A stretch of DNA of 64,000 nucleotides from Siphonobacter aquaeclarae. Lineage in GTDB: Bacteria; Bacteroidota; Bacteroidia; Cytophagales; Spirosomataceae. Under the pieces are notes generated by a model, which was not told where the DNA came from, did no database searches, and worked only from the letters and a program-made list of their open reading frames with translations. Of the stretch, positions 40,715 through 50,823 are shown one piece after another. Numbering within the stretch: position 1 is the stretch's first letter; each line of letters opens with the position of its first letter. The position numbers were made by a program, and so were the translations under genes. The stretch lies in the NCBI RefSeq assembly GCF_900103285.1, contig NZ_FNGS01000002.1, positions 660,064 through 724,063 on the forward strand. The letters run 5' to 3'.

Positions 40715-41130
40715 AAATGTATCGAAGACCTAACAATAAAAAATGATAGATGGGTTTGGTTATCGGCTCTTTTCAACTGTCTAAAAATAGCCAGACAATC
40801 AGTTAATTACTTGACTTTCCGAGACTCTTGGGAGGATCGGAGAAACTAATTTTCGTACAAAACTAGCGGGAAGAAGCGGGCTTTCCAAAGCCATTTCCTA
40901 ATATTGGAGGTTGTTTACCGGAGAAGGCGGACGCCGACGTGGGATGACCGGAGCTGTAAGCAATAGGCTGTCGGCTGTCCCGTCTGAACGCGCGCCGATA
41001 CCTAAGGTTTCTTTCGCCGGGCCCGTCGCCCGTCTTCAAACCCGATACTACTTTGTTACGGAATGACCGGCTTAATGCCTATAGCGTACTGCTTATGGCC
41101 TTTTGCCATTCCAACAACCTGTTACTTTAC
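40715..41130. other. 416-base intergenic region with remnants of the repeat word
   Basis: This gap separates the divergent ahcY and ftsE-like genes. It has no coding potential that I can support. At 40958-40985 and 41072-41100 it holds degenerate pieces of the GCTGTAAGCAATAGGC / GCCTATAGC word that is perfect in the array at 47171-47626. A near-consensus -7 box for ahcY (minus strand TATTTTTA, 40782-40789) is present. Confidence 0.6.
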
Positions 41131-41832: not shown

Positions 41833-41855
41833 GGCTGTAAGCGATAGGCTTTAGG

Positions 41856-41918
41856 CTATAAGCAAAAAAGGCTGTACGTGAGAGACACCCTCCAACGTAC
41901 AGCCTTTTTTGCTTATAG
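41856..41918. repeat. Perfect 24-bp hairpin/terminator made from the AAGCTATAG word
   Basis: Arms 41856-41879 and 41895-41918 are perfectly complementary over 24 bases around a 15-base loop, with a run of A on the left and a run of T on the right. The flanks (41832-41855 and 41919-41942) carry further copies of GGCTGTAAGC / GCATACAGC-like words in opposite orientation. It lies between the convergent ftsE-like and Wzi genes and can terminate both. Confidence 0.85.
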
Positions 41919-41955
41919 CTTATTGCATACAGCGTAAAGCCTTATATCCTGCCCC

Positions 41956-45423: not shown

Positions 45424-46170
45424 ATGCTCCGGTTCACGTTCGGCCTTCCGATTTTTCACATTTTCCCCGACCCGGCAGAGCCGCTTCTGGGTGTCGAACT
45501 CCGTGACAAAGAGCAGCATTACGCCGGTTTTCAGGTCGTATCACCAGCGGACATTGAAGCGCCCGATACGCCTCTTCCGGCCCGGTTCGACCTCCCCTGG
45601 TGGTCGCATCCGTTAGGAATTTTTAACGGAATACTCCTCGCCCATCTGTTCGGCGATCCGGGCATTCCGGCGCCGACGGCATTACAAGCCTACCGGATTT
45701 CCGACGGTTCTCTTGCCTGGGAACGACCCGGCCTCGTTTGGCTACGGACAGACGGAAGTACCGTCACGACCCGGAATGACCGTTTTGAAGAACAAACGAT
45801 CGGGCTGTTTTCGGGCGAACCGGCTCAGCCACAGGCCGCTGCCGGACAATCAGTAGCCCCCGCTCATTTTCCGGAAGGCCATCCGGAACTGTATTCCCTT
45901 CACCGCCTGGTCCGGCTGTGTACCGGCCAGCAGGCAGTAGGCCCGGTCGACTACCTTGAAATACCCGGCCTCATTGTGATTTCTTTTTACTTTTACGCAT
46001 CAGAAAAGCTAAAAAACAGCTTACTTGTCGTTAACCACTCGGGAGAGGTGGTGCTGCACGAAGAGTTGTCGGCCGCCTCGGGTTCCGGGTATTCCACCTT
46101 TCTGTATTGGAGGGATTCCCTCATTTTTGTTCAAGATCAAGTTCATCTCTGCTGCTATGCGGTATCGTAA
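45424..46170 (+). CDS. DUF4905 family protein
   Basis: A protein of about 248 residues that resembles the Bacteroidota-restricted DUF4905 family. ATG codons at 45403 and 45424 (MLRFTFGLPIFHIFPDP) are both possible; the second gives a more typical start. It is soluble, has no signal peptide, and has a beta-rich pattern with repeated acidic/aromatic strands (AYRISDGSLAWERPGLVWL, VDYLEIPGLIVISFYFY), perhaps a propeller. No catalytic motif is visible. The 3' end overlaps the LysM gene by 14 bases, so the two are cotranscribed. It is divergent from porX, with a gap of about 200 bases. Confidence 0.7.
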   Translation: MLRFTFGLPIFHIFPDPAEPLLGVELRDKEQHYAGFQVVSPADIEAPDTPLPARFDLPWWSHPLGIFNGILLAHLFGDPGIPAPTALQAYRISDGSLAWERPGLVWLRTDGSTVTTRNDRFEEQTIGLFSGEPAQPQAAAGQSVAPAHFPEGHPELYSLHRLVRLCTGQQAVGPVDYLEIPGLIVISFYFYASEKLKNSLLVVNHSGEVVLHEELSAASGSGYSTFLYWRDSLIFVQDQVHLCCYAVS

Positions 46171-47158
46171 TGTTTGGCTGGCCGGAATTGCCTCGCTGGT
46201 AGCCATGGAAGTTTCAGCAAACGGCTTTCCTGTCGATTCGGTCGGTATGGACCGGAAGGGAGGCCAACCCGTTATTGTTTTCAAAGTCACCCCCGGACAG
46301 ACGCTTTACAGCTTGCTGAAGCGGTATAATGTAACGATGGACGAATTCAAGGCTGTGAATCCCGGCTTTTCCGGTAACCTGCGCTCGGAAGAAGTCGTCT
46401 ACATTCCCCGAAACGGCTACAAAGGCCCCATTACGCCTCCGGCGAAATCCGGCCAGGCGGCCAATACCCATAAAGTCGAGCCCGGTCAGACGCTTTTCAG
46501 CATTGCCCGCAAGTACGATATCGGCACCGCCGATCTGAAGAAATGGAATAACCTTCCGTCGGACGGGACCGTCCAGGCCGGCCAGGTTCTCTACCTGAGT
46601 GACCCGGGGCCGCGCGTCGCCGAAGCGCCGAAAAAACCGGAGCCGAAGCCCGCCGAACCCATCGCCAGAAACGAACCGAAAAAAGCCGAACCGAAGCCGG
46701 AAGAGCCCAAAAAAGCGGAGGAACCCAAAAAGGAAGAAGAACACCGGAAAAACGACACCACCAAGGCCAAAGCAGAAGAAGCGCCGAAGCCCGTTTTACC
46801 CGCAAAACCTGAATCGGAACCGCTTCCGCCCGCCAACAGGACTGAAAACGAGCCTGTTCCCAATGCCGGCGCCGGCGCCCGAAAGGTCGTGGAGTTGGGT
46901 CTCTGCGAACTCATCGATGCGCAGGACCGTACCGGAAAATACCTCGCCCTGCACCGTACCGCACCCGTCGGGACGATGCTGACGATCCGCAATGAAGCCA
47001 ATAACCAGAGCGTTGTCGTGAAAGTAATCGGCAAGCTGCCCGATACCGGGATGGCTGACCGCGTCATCGTCCGCCTTTCCGCCCGCGCCTTCGAGCGCCT
47101 CATGCCGACGGATCGCCGTATCCGTGCGGAGGTTAGTTACCTGGCAGCGGAGCAGTAG
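46157..47158 (+). CDS. LysM protein with C-terminal double-psi beta-barrel domain
   Basis: A 333-residue exported cell-wall protein starting at MRYRNVWLAGIASLVAMEVSA (signal peptide). Two LysM repeats follow: about 35-85 (VTPGQTLYSLLKRYNVTMDE) and 105-150 (VEPGQTLFSIARKYDIGTAD). A long Pro/Lys/Glu-rich linker spans about 155-245. An RlpA-like double-psi beta-barrel is at about 245-333 (LHRTAPVGTMLTIRNEAN, then RVIVRLSARAFERL). The RlpA His is kept, but the Asp of NDRGPF is replaced (VIGKLP), so lytic activity is doubtful and a structural peptidoglycan-binding role more likely. The start overlaps the DUF4905 gene. The tandem repeat array begins 13 bases after its stop. Confidence 0.88.
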   Translation: MRYRNVWLAGIASLVAMEVSANGFPVDSVGMDRKGGQPVIVFKVTPGQTLYSLLKRYNVTMDEFKAVNPGFSGNLRSEEVVYIPRNGYKGPITPPAKSGQAANTHKVEPGQTLFSIARKYDIGTADLKKWNNLPSDGTVQAGQVLYLSDPGPRVAEAPKKPEPKPAEPIARNEPKKAEPKPEEPKKAEEPKKEEEHRKNDTTKAKAEEAPKPVLPAKPESEPLPPANRTENEPVPNAGAGARKVVELGLCELIDAQDRTGKYLALHRTAPVGTMLTIRNEANNQSVVVKVIGKLPDTGMADRVIVRLSARAFERLMPTDRRIRAEVSYLAAEQ

Positions 47159-47170
47159 TGAGGGACGTGG

Positions 47171-47226
47171 TAGGCTGTAGGCAATAGGCTTTAGGCAATA
47201 GGCTGTAGGCAATAGGCTGTAGGCTT
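47171..47226. repeat. 14-bp minisatellite, four copies
   Basis: TAGGCTGTAGGCAA occurs at 47171, 47185 (with TTT for TGT), 47199 and, partly, 47213, head to tail with no spacer. It leads directly into the larger array. Confidence 0.9.
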
Positions 47227-47626
47227 TAAGCCGCGTAACCGGCTCGTTTTTTTGCAATAGCTTAAAGCTTATAGCCTACCGCCTATAGCTCCTGAGCAGG
47301 CTGTAGGCTTTAGCCGCGTAAACGGCTCCTTATCTTTTACAATAGCTTAAAGCTTATAGCCTACCGCCTATAGCTCCTGAGCAGGCTTTGAGCCGCGTAA
47401 CCGGCTCCTTTCTCTTACAATAGCTTAAAGCTTATAGCCTACAGCCTATAGCTCCTGAGCAGGCTTTAGCCGCGTAACCGGCTCCTTATCCTTTACAATA
47501 GCTTAAAGCTTATAGCCTACCGCCTATAGCTCCTGAGCAGGCTTTAAGCCGCGTAACCGGCTCCTTTCGTTTACAATAGCTTAAAGCTTATAGCCTAATG
47601 CTTATAGCTCACTGTATATAGCTTAC
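47213..47626. repeat. Tandem array of about 78-bp units, five copies
   Basis: The element CAATAGCTTAAAGCTTATAG begins at 47255, 47340, 47418, 47496 and 47574, giving spacings of 85, 78, 78 and 78. The second copy is longer by a 7-base CTGTAGG insert. Each unit has three small palindromes: AGCCG-CGTAAC-CGGCT, CCTGAGCAGG and TAGCTTAAAGCTTA. Units differ by only a few bases, and the last copy decays after TATAGCC. There are no unique spacers. The minus strand has an accidental open frame with AYSLLPTAYCL-like peptide repeats that should not be annotated as a gene. Confidence 0.92.
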
Positions 47627-47633
47627 AAAGTCG

Positions 47634-47641
47634 TACATTTG
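47634..47641 (+). promoter_or_regulatory. -7 box of the 59-residue membrane protein gene
   Basis: TACATTTG, an exact TAnnTTTG match, immediately after the repeat array and 56 bases before the ATG. Confidence 0.55.
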
Positions 47642-47645
47642 CAAC

Positions 47646-47680
47646 CAGGGGAACCTTTTCCGAAAAAAAAGGTTCCCCTG
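47646..47680 (+). promoter_or_regulatory. Leader hairpin, possible attenuator
   Basis: CAGGGGAACCTTTT (47646-47659) pairs perfectly with AAAAGGTTCCCCTG (47667-47680) around a seven-base loop. It begins five bases after the -7 box, so it would form the very 5' end of the transcript. It has no T run after it on the plus strand, so it is not a standard terminator there; an mRNA-stabilising or attenuating role is inference. Confidence 0.5.
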
Positions 47681-47697
47681 ACAAATAACTCACTGTT

Positions 47698-47877
47698 ATG
47701 GGACGACTGCCTGACCGTTCGCGCTACGTTACGACCGGCGCCATCATCTTTAACATTATCTTCATTCTCGCCTACCCGATTATTGCGCTGTTTTACCTGA
47801 CGTTCAATATTCTGGTATGGATTCTCTCGATTCCTTCGCGAATCTGGGCATTTGTGGCGCGGAAAATCCGCTCCTGA
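47698..47877 (+). CDS. Small membrane protein, 59 residues
   Basis: A short open frame of 59 codons. The N-terminus is basic (MGRLPDRSRYVTTG), followed by a long hydrophobic stretch from residue 14 to about 48 (AIIFNIIFILAYPIIALFYL, then TFNILVWILSIP) and a basic tail (ARKIRS): two membrane spans or one long hairpin, with both ends positive. I do not recognise the family. Support for it being real comes from the consensus -7 box, the charge distribution, and a stop that abuts the stop of the convergent kinase without a gap. Confidence 0.65.
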   Translation: MGRLPDRSRYVTTGAIIFNIIFILAYPIIALFYLTFNILVWILSIPSRIWAFVARKIRS

Positions 47878-50823
47878 TTATTCCAGCATTTGCAGGACGT
47901 CCGGATAGGTTTTCTGAAACCGGGCGTATTCCTCTTCGATCGGCGGGAATTCCTCTTCGAACGTACTGAAATTCCCTACCTTGGTTTTCAGCTCCAGGGT
48001 TTTCACGGTTTCATGCAGGCGATGAATACCCAGCGTGCCCGCATTTCCTTTGAGGGTGTGGAGGTTGGACTCTACCGTTTGCAGGTCCCGGCTTTCGTAA
48101 GCTTCTTTCGCAGCCCGGATCTGTTCTTCCGCTTCCTGTTCAAATTCCGCAAAAACCTGTTCGACCATTTCCTTACCCGCCAGGCCGGCCAGTTGCCTGA
48201 CTACGCCCAGGTCGTAAAGGTCTTCGATTCCGGCGGGCGCGGCAACAGGTTCCGGTACTTCCGGCGTCACCTCCAGTACCTCCTTCACGCGCTTCGCCGC
48301 GAGGCGATCTACCCATTCTTTTACTTTCAGGACCAGGATTTCGGCGCGGATGGGTTTTGAGACGTAATCGTTCATCCCCTGACTCAGAAACCGCTCCCGA
48401 TCCTCTTTCATCGAATACGCCGTCATCGCCAATACCGGCGGCAGCGCTTCTCCAAATTGCGCACGGAGCGCGTGAGTCGTTTCCAGCCCGTCCATATCCG
48501 GCATCTGAATATCCATCAGAACCAGGTCAAACAACTGACTGCCATCGGGATCCCCGCCGTTCCGGGCGAAGGCATCCTCCATCAGGCTGATTGCCTTCCG
48601 GCCTGAATCAGCGGTAGTTACCTCACAACCGGCCTTAATCAGAATTTCGCTGGCTACTTTCCGGTTGACAGCGTTGTCGTCGACCAATAAGATCAACGGC
48701 CGCTCGGCCGACAGGTACCCCGCGATCTGGAATTCATCCGCGTACTTTTTCTCCTGCAGCGGAGCAATCATGGTTTCCTTCAGTTCGACTGTGAACCAGA
48801 AGGTACTACCCCTTCCTACTTCCGACTCCACGCCCATTTCTCCGCGCATCAACCGGGATAGCTCCCGTGAAATGGCCAGTCCGAGGCCGGTACCGCCGAA
48901 CGACTTCCGGGTGGTATTGTCCAGTTGCTGAAACGCGCCGAAGAGTTGCTTCAGGCCTTCCGGCGGAATACCGATTCCGCTGTCTTCTACTTCTACCCGG
49001 ATCCGATGCCACTTGCCGTGCACGGAGAGGTTTTGCACCAGTACCCTGACGCTTCCTCCTTCGGTAAACTTCAACGCGTTGGACGTCAGGTTGGAAAGTA
49101 TCTGCAGCAGACGGGTTTCATCGGCGATGATGTATTTCGGCAGATTTTCACCCAGCTCGTATGTCAGCGTATTGTGGCGGTTGCGGGCCGTTTGACTGAA
49201 AAGACTGATGAGCTTGTCGAATACGCTCCGGAATTCAAACGGGGCTTCGTGCAGCACCATTTTTCCGGCTTCGATTTTCGACAGGTCCAGAATATCGTTG
49301 AGGATATTGAGCAGGGTTTCGGACGAACGTTTGATGGTATGAACGTACTCCTTCTGCTCCTGATCGAGCGCGGTACTGCCGAGAAGATCGATCATCCCGA
49401 TGACGCCGTTCATCGGCGTCCGGATTTCGTGAGACATGTTGGCGAGGAAGCGTTCCTTCACCTTCAGGGAGCGTTCAGCTTCCTCCTTCGCCTTCAGCAG
49501 TTCACGCGCGGATCGCTTCAGCGGGGTAATGTCCCGGGCAATGCCTGCGACTTCCTCGATGCTTCCGTCGGCCAGCAAAATAGGGTTCAGGTATACCTCA
49601 AACCAGATTTCGTCGCCGTGCCGGAGGTGTTCCATGTGGACTTCAAACGACTCCGCTTTCCCGCGGAAGGCCGTTTTGTATTTGTCCTCCATCACCTTCC
49701 GGTTCGCCGCATCCATGAGTTTCCAGGCAAATTGATCGGTCGATACATTGACCTGGGGAGGCATAGACAACTGTTGCTGGATCAGGTTCAGGTAGTTGTC
49801 GTTGAACGAGGTAAGCTGCAGCCGGCGGTTGACCGTCCACATCAGGTGACTCGACGATTCGAAGATGGCGTGCAGACGGGCCGTCTGTTTCCCCAGCTCC
49901 GCCTCCGCCTGCTTCCGCTCGATGGCGACTGCTACCTGCCCGGAGACGAATTCGAGCAGTTCCAGGTCCCGGATATCGAACTTATTGGTCCGCTCGTAGG
50001 ATTTAACGCCGATGATCCCCGTAATCCGGTCGCCGATCCGCAGCGGCACGCACAGCATGACCTTCGGAATCTGTCCGTAGATATACAAAATACGCTGCCG
50101 GGCCAGCTCCTGAATTTCAGACTCGGTCAGCATCAGCGGCCGGTTGGCTACAATCGCATATTCCGTCAGGCCGTTTCCAAGTTTCCGTTTGGTGAAGCGG
50201 AGGTTTCCCTTGAAGTACTCATCGACATAGTACGGAAAATACAGGTAGCTCTTCGACGGCTCATACAGAGCAATGAAGAAGTTTTTGGTATCAATGACCT
50301 TCCCCAGCTCCACGTGAATGAAGTGGTAGAGGTCGTCCAGGCTGCGGGTCGACAGCGTCGAGTTGGCAATCTGGTAATACAGATTCTGAGCGTTTTCCGC
50401 CCGGTTGCGCGCCGTCGAATCGTGAAAAATACACCGGAAAAGAATGGGCGCTCCCTGCTCGTCATACCGGCAGCTGACGGACCCGGTAAGGTATACCCGC
50501 CGGCCGTCCTTTCTCCGGTAAACCGCCTCAAAATCAGGTATCTGCTCTCCGTTTTTCACCCGGTCAAACCGGGCGAGCGTTTCCTCCATGAACTCCGGAT
50601 GAATGACATCCTGGAGCGTCATCTGGTTCAGTTCTGCCGAGCGGTAACCGATAGCATCCTTCCAGGCCTTGTTGACATACAGGAACCGGCCCTGCAGGTC
50701 GACCATCTGGATAAGGTCTGTGGTATTCCGGATGAGGTCCTGAAGTTCGGAGGAGGCTGAATTGAGGGGCAGCCCCGGAGAGGTCTGCCGAAGAGTGGGT
50801 ACGGATTCTGTCACTTTTGTCAT
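47878..50823 (-). CDS. PAS-GAF-PAS hybrid histidine kinase with REC and HPt
   Basis: A roughly 981-residue soluble hybrid kinase that starts at ATG 50823 (a TTG two codons earlier is possible). The order is PAS (about 25-145, DLIQMVDLQGRFLYVNKAW), GAF (about 160-310), PAS (about 325-450), HisKA with H467 in ANMSHEIRTPMNGVIG, HATPase (about 580-695, SGIGIPPEGLKQLFGAF), receiver (about 715-850, LILLVDDNAVNRK and LVLMDIQMPDMDG) and an HPt domain (about 870-975, NLHTLKGNAGTLGI). All phosphorelay residues are present, so a His-Asp-His relay could run inside one chain, with output through a separate regulator. None is adjacent. Confidence 0.93.
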   Translation of the reverse strand: MTKVTESVPTLRQTSPGLPLNSASSELQDLIRNTTDLIQMVDLQGRFLYVNKAWKDAIGYRSAELNQMTLQDVIHPEFMEETLARFDRVKNGEQIPDFEAVYRRKDGRRVYLTGSVSCRYDEQGAPILFRCIFHDSTARNRAENAQNLYYQIANSTLSTRSLDDLYHFIHVELGKVIDTKNFFIALYEPSKSYLYFPYYVDEYFKGNLRFTKRKLGNGLTEYAIVANRPLMLTESEIQELARQRILYIYGQIPKVMLCVPLRIGDRITGIIGVKSYERTNKFDIRDLELLEFVSGQVAVAIERKQAEAELGKQTARLHAIFESSSHLMWTVNRRLQLTSFNDNYLNLIQQQLSMPPQVNVSTDQFAWKLMDAANRKVMEDKYKTAFRGKAESFEVHMEHLRHGDEIWFEVYLNPILLADGSIEEVAGIARDITPLKRSARELLKAKEEAERSLKVKERFLANMSHEIRTPMNGVIGMIDLLGSTALDQEQKEYVHTIKRSSETLLNILNDILDLSKIEAGKMVLHEAPFEFRSVFDKLISLFSQTARNRHNTLTYELGENLPKYIIADETRLLQILSNLTSNALKFTEGGSVRVLVQNLSVHGKWHRIRVEVEDSGIGIPPEGLKQLFGAFQQLDNTTRKSFGGTGLGLAISRELSRLMRGEMGVESEVGRGSTFWFTVELKETMIAPLQEKKYADEFQIAGYLSAERPLILLVDDNAVNRKVASEILIKAGCEVTTADSGRKAISLMEDAFARNGGDPDGSQLFDLVLMDIQMPDMDGLETTHALRAQFGEALPPVLAMTAYSMKEDRERFLSQGMNDYVSKPIRAEILVLKVKEWVDRLAAKRVKEVLEVTPEVPEPVAAPAGIEDLYDLGVVRQLAGLAGKEMVEQVFAEFEQEAEEQIRAAKEAYESRDLQTVESNLHTLKGNAGTLGIHRLHETVKTLELKTKVGNFSTFEEEFPPIEEEYARFQKTYPDVLQMLE

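Follow-up and report, generated by a model that had tools for sequence, protein, structure and literature searches.

The extragenic palindromes known as REP, BIME and REPIN have been described as inverted doublets that form hairpins, lie mostly downstream of genes and also occur in clusters (PMC3733652, PMC3116915, PMC2817692), and a function has been hypothesised for REP/BIME elements (PMC3733652). TAACTGA heptamer repeats are known from Beggiatoaceae, Cyanobacteria and Bacteroidetes as direct repeats of an identical unit, with main-genome copies mostly just upstream of start codons, and heptamers are given as the commonest class of long simple sequence repeats in most genomes (PMC4679880). 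In the genome of Siphonobacter aquaeclarae we have observed paired intergenic arrays of a degenerate 7-bp repeat, TARGCNN (heptad; inverse form NNGCYTA). Long simple sequence repeats and the cyanobacterial STRR are described as tandem repeats and are not known as paired palindromes. Plasmid iterons, also tandem, are direct repeats that adjoin the gene of the plasmid's replication initiator, and REP sequences carry an unpaired GTAG or CGTC tag at one end. Among the results listed from an open-licence library, none names a family for TARGCNN palindromes; 151 papers contain one of the heptad strings, and the 15 of them that were listed are unrelated to judge by their titles, as is one further paper on fruit-fly enhancers.

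The five-copy tandem array that had been read from the window, i.e., the whole 64,000-nucleotide stretch of DNA that was analysed, has been confirmed by TRF, which reports a tandem repeat at 47220-47610 with a period of 78 and 4.9 copies. The 20-mer anchor recurs at 47255, 47340, 47418, 47496 and 47574, exactly as claimed in the original prediction, and unique spacers between the units are absent, as stated there. The five units of ~78 bp (74-83 bp as cut, Table 1) share pairwise identities of 89-96%, and they are thus similar, but not nearly identical as had been described. The start had been placed at 47213; the array stands, but its repeat structure already begins at 47171, 12 bp past the stop codon of the LysM-like gene, with nine left-arm heptads directly upstream (47171-47231) that are oriented opposite to the heptads of the array units. 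Each unit thus comprises a right arm, then a loop and a shortened left arm; five such units follow a single complete left arm. The right-arm repeats of the later units have been located at 47340-47378, 47416-47458, 47496-47534 and 47575-47612. The short hairpin AGCCGCGTAACCGGCT between the arms is present in five array copies, without mismatch in four and with one mismatch in the fifth, and a search for it has returned four more matches in the window, with 3 mismatches each.

Table 1. Positions of the array, its parts, the neighbouring genes and the other TARGC elements of the window.
Feature	Position	Strand	Remark
Upstream gene, 333 aa, LysM-like by eye	46157..47158	+	same order with next gene at four Siphonobacter loci
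Left arm, nine TARGC heptads (TAGGCTG TAGGCAA ... TAAGC)	47171..47231	+	
Array unit 1, 83 bp	47219..47301	+	last left-arm heptads overlapped
Short hairpin AGCCGCGTAACCGGCT between arms	47229..47244	+	again at 47312, 47391, 47468, 47547
Right (inverse) arm of unit 1, NNGCYTA heptads	47255..47293	-	
Array unit 2, 79 bp	47302..47380	+	
Array unit 3, 77 bp	47381..47457	+	
Array unit 4, 79 bp	47458..47536	+	
Array unit 5, 74 bp	47537..47610	+	
-7-like box TACATTTG, putative promoter element	47634..47641	+	read by eye against the consensus TAnnTTTG
Gene of a small protein, 59 aa, classed as membrane protein by eye	47698..47877	+	
Second TARGC element in window	41838..41923		terminator-like stem with A/T flanks enclosed by the arms; flanking genes convergent
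Third TARGC element in window	40957..41096		between divergent genes

Identical arrays at other positions had been named as the finding that would speak against the prediction; the full 414-bp stretch has been found only here, occurring once in its own genome, where the other listed places match over only 24-67 bp (40 of 103 first-look candidates scored), and the whole array has been matched in none of the 28 relatives among the 29 genomes searched, its own included. The assembly is a draft of 19 contigs, with the array in the interior of one of 896 kb, and the copy number may therefore be wrong. A scan of 46900-48000 against Rfam 15 has given no family over the gathering score, the best of seven sub-threshold microRNA-model matches reaching 26.5 bits vs. 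90. The -7-like box after the array and the ORF of a small membrane protein downstream of it are located where the prediction had them. The suggested iteron-like role finds no support so far: tandem repeats are common to the array and to plasmid iterons, but by eye no replication gene occurs among the neighbouring ORFs, the contig is large, and a search of plasmid records with the array has returned no match.

In four Siphonobacter loci (L108-L111), the small membrane protein shows 73-76% identity and the GGAACCTTT block near its gene is retained; the gap from the LysM-like gene to the small membrane protein gene amounts to 135, 78, 116 and 113 bp as compared to 539 bp here. The extra intergenic sequence has been gained at this locus or, in principle, lost in the four relatives. 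The leader of this small gene contains a palindrome at 47647-47679 with a 13-bp stem (AGGGGAACCTTTT/AAAAGGTTCCCCT) around the GGAACCTTT block, which the four relatives keep without the inverted half. An 18-bp coding repeat has been noted at 46698-46742, in the linker of the LysM-like gene.

The earlier reading as an amplified palindromic, structure-forming repeat is supported by these data; the dispersed intergenic family to which the building blocks belong had escaped it. Triple TARGC heptads occur 504 times in the own genome, whereas the control with the reversed pattern gives 0 there and five congeners likewise have 0, and any triple-heptad match has been found in 12 of 39 genomes, own included. 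Within a sample of 1,664,000 bases of the own genome, including the window (~4 kb of window/block overlap, free of elements, is counted twice), 38 TARGC elements with at least four heptads have been identified, which scales to an estimate of about 120 for the genome. All 38 are intergenic, the overlap with genes called by a home-made caller never exceeding 60 bp. Both arms have been seen in 32 of them, invariably with the TARGC arm first (32/32), and a single arm in six; more than two arms are present in seven of the 38. One of these seven, C7:651711, contains three units that are nearly identical, and the array locus is thus not the only one with amplification. The arms are spaced by 12-204 bp, with loops differing among the elements, and adjacent heptads vary at NN with the core kept, the free bases being seldom C (13/364 and 11/364 heptads of the sample). 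Six blocks of the sample differ in element density, with a minimum of 0.2 and a maximum of 4.7 per 100 kb, the latter in the window itself. An identical heptad run occurs on three contigs of G000 (C1:5681, C3:115, C5:134), near the start of C3 and C5, and is possibly a repeated region breaking the assembly; a tRNA gene search in L047 and L059 has found none.

The 7-bp period extends beyond the TARGC sequence. A scan for 7-base self-similarity, which makes no assumption on sequence, has detected 119 regions at lag 7 in the 1.66 Mb, vs. 2, 9, 1 and 0 at lags 8, 9, 10 and 11, and with a period so far above the others the elements belong to the broad heptanucleotide kind of simple repeat. Two related genomes show a smaller excess (25 at lag 7 vs. 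5 at lag 8, and 21 vs. 11). No TARGC pair is contained in 77 of the 119 regions, which are mostly of the GTTTTCR, GTTTAGR or GGGCA type and are referred to here as further dialects. After merging of the detections, 159 arrays have been obtained for the own sample, and their neighbours within 260 bp (n = 58) are arranged as +- in 47 cases, -- in nine, and -+ and ++ in one each. Both arms belong to the same dialect in all 47 +- pairs (30 TARGC, 17 GTTT/GTTG; these two pooled, 10 both-arm regions and one unclassified region left out), whereas shuffling of the partners has given a mean of 25 and a maximum of 35 in 2000 shuffles. The matched dialects and the fixed order of the arms indicate that the palindrome, and not merely the repeat, is the unit. 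GGGCA-type arrays have been found in a +- pair in 0 of 14 cases. The GTTTTCR dialect is matched in 9 of 24 genomes overall, and each of the six genus genomes has it (129, 1, 96, 112, 20 and 48 matches); among these six, it is therefore by the TARGC dialect that this species is distinguished. Pure arrays of great length, e.g., (GTTTTCG)n, occur as well. Such arrays of (GTTTTCG)n or (GTTTTCA)n at L079:5453, L087:19571, L151:8901 and L156:6811 are followed, by eye, by a common TTCGAGRGATT and then by a CCYTAAAA ... ACTGAAAAC stretch, and this shared loop text possibly represents an element body common to several loci. TAACTGA repeats resemble the heptad elements in their 7-bp period, intergenic position, patchy distribution and presence in Bacteroidetes, whereas the heptad elements differ by their degenerate unit, their inverted pairs and their frequent abutment on stop codons (PMC4679880). 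In the own 1.66-Mb sample, TAACTGA pairs number 0 and single occurrences 76.

Although 88% of the sample is coding, 158 of the 159 arrays are intergenic. The arrays were oriented by their G+T-rich strand; it coincides with the strand of the dialect for 137 of 157, which leaves some orientations uncertain. On this basis, 92 arrays have a gene 3' end on their upstream side and 66 have a 5' end there. The median distance to the upstream 3' end is 1 bp, with 63 of 92 arrays beginning at most 12 bp away, and that to the 5' end is 60 bp, with 14 of 66 arrays at most 12 bp away, where array edges may overlap the gene by up to 17 bp. TAG stops have been found beside arrays in 35 of 63 cases vs. 322 of 1303 genes (Fisher p 8e-8), which suggested growth of the heptads by duplication of the stop codon together with the four bases that follow it. 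Relative to the stop, however, the RG column shows no significant phase (p = 0.27, 51 of 63 arrays phaseable), and this reading has been dropped. The TAG contained in some dialects may explain the stop enrichment.

RNA folding of 20 elements with loops of at most 60 bp has resulted in a mean z of -5.5 (range -1.1 to -11.6; 60 shuffles each), and the whole array region reaches z -6.8 on the + strand and -4.7 on the other strand (40 shuffles). For a lone 78-bp unit, folding does not exceed that of its shuffled versions (z -0.9 and -0.7). The complementarity of the arms lies above the 95th percentile of cross-element pairs in only 6 of 43 elements, two of which have arms that match over 58-59 bp. 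An exact hairpin has been rejected, as the free-column identity of partner arms is 0.49 vs. 0.44 when shuffled, a value reached by 5 of 500 permutations (37 pairs). With REP/BIME/REPIN, the heptad elements have in common the extragenic inverted doublet and the predicted hairpin, given the placement, pairing and folding reported above; they are unlike them in their degenerate 7-bp units, different loops and several dialects, and in place of the conserved palindrome of 20-40 bp they share arms only.

Four consecutive TARGC heptads have been matched in 41 of 392 genomes of the phylum, with 279 matches in the own genome and 19-31 in each of six species of one large genus (g45, probably Flavobacterium) that belongs to a different order; when 61 genomes of this genus were sampled separately, 29 had at least one triple heptad. 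In some genomes, e.g., G203 and G263, the listed matches are uniform copies of one heptad, i.e., an ordinary simple repeat, and the reversed control is high in a few genomes of the phylum (up to 286 in G326), its matches in G020 and G022 being 7-bp runs such as CGAATTA. An identical TARGC run is listed at six places of G207:C1 (23903, 471739, 2143603 on the minus strand, 3568253, 3744683 and 4370691); as it adjoins tRNA-Ala and tRNA-Ile genes in L202, it probably lies within ribosomal RNA operons. Between two g45 genomes, eight collinear stretches, 85-92% identical on average, have yielded nine alignments, six of which entered the rate count: L219/L227 was dropped because the second genome is without a TARGC element, L225/L233 because its units are poorly alignable, and L221/L229 because the dialect differs between the two genomes. 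In these six orthologous elements, a count that by its design covers only sites where both genomes still have the element, the core is conserved, with mismatches in 3/160 and 4/163 core columns of the arms (each genome as reference) as compared to 7/40 and 7/41 at R and 6/60 and 8/62 at NN. Loops mismatch in 29/188 and flanks in 118/1954 columns, both directions pooled and most columns thus counted twice. The orthologue L228 has decaying cores. At L221/L229, a TARGC palindrome (L221:6483-6637) and an AGTTGAT-type palindrome (L229:14255-14342) occupy the same site after orthologous stop codons. Conserved cores together with poorly complementary spacers suggest that core pairing or recognition matters in any register.

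Regarding the origin of such elements, a neutral by-product is conceivable, in which replication slippage by 7 nt and inverted duplication fill intergenic space that is free of selection, the array being a recent functionless expansion. The presence of several dialects within one genome, the long pure arrays, the decayed cores of L228 and the stronger avoidance of gene starts than of stops are consistent with it, yet the core columns of surviving orthologous elements show far fewer changes than R, NN and loops, neighbouring heptads vary at NN with the core kept, unlike in plain slippage, and the arms of all 47 pairs are of one dialect, so that we regard this origin as rather unlikely. The conserved core could instead be the site of a putative DNA- or RNA-binding protein, repeated every 7 bp, which would agree with the constant core, the free spacers, the fixed spacing and the uneven density of the elements among the six blocks; this is improbable in our view, because unrelated cores follow the same paired architecture in one genome.

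Equally improbable appears a bidirectional transcription terminator or insulator. Of the 38 TARGC elements, 13 lie between convergent genes; for comparison, 201 of 1297 pairs of adjacent genes are convergent, and 42 of 397 when only pairs separated by more than 150 bp are counted. By eye, several loops include A/T-flanked terminator-like stems, but six of the 38 elements lie between divergent genes and many short loops are, again by eye, without a T-run. The selfish repeat of the original prediction is conceivable, and to a copy-and-paste mobile element such as a MITE or REPIN we assign a low probability. The TARGC dialect is abundant in one of six genus genomes, nearly shared arms with different loops have been found at C7:169931, C7:609296 and C16:12650, and four GTTTTC-dialect loci have some loop text in common, so that copying between loci may have occurred; against this, the TARGC loops look unrelated between loci by eye, and a REP tyrosine transposase flanked by repeats has not been found, the single Y1_Tnp match of the genome having 0 heptad pairs within ~1.5 kb on each side.

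That the array belongs to the heptad family and has been amplified locally is, as a joint claim, highly probable. The best reading of the heptad palindrome is a REP/BIME-like hairpin element of another sequence kind, which has been tandemly amplified here, and as an overall explanation we give this about an even chance. In such an element, a left array of TARGCNN units and a right array of the inverse units enclose a loop that differs from locus to locus, and the five-copy array is most probably one intergenic palindrome that has been amplified in tandem, presumably via unequal recombination or slippage between like heptads. The paired cores may fold into a hairpin at gene borders, in mRNA or in single-stranded DNA, and the function that would fit best is the one hypothesised for REP/BIME, in which the hairpins would shield the 3' end of the upstream message and separate neighbouring genes. 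We infer both function and spread of the family, and the REP-like function in itself is proposed tentatively. A pure 3'-end role does not explain the 66 of 158 arrays after gene 5' ends and the six elements between divergent genes. Further counting against a REP/BIME-like hairpin are the imprecise arm complements, the unit folding like shuffled sequence, the unpaired GGGCA arrays and the decaying cores of L228.

More generally, and with somewhat less than even confidence, one may postulate that Bacteroidota carry intergenic palindromes of a class not yet described, which arise, lengthen and are exchanged in steps of 7 bp, with several dialects per genome, matched arms and a pairing core under selection, in which one dialect could take the site of another in related species. 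Two known and poorly explained features, heptamer repeats and extragenic palindromes, would thereby be joined in one element, and its dialects, matched arms and orthologous pairs would open selection, spread and function to comparative genomics and simple deletions.
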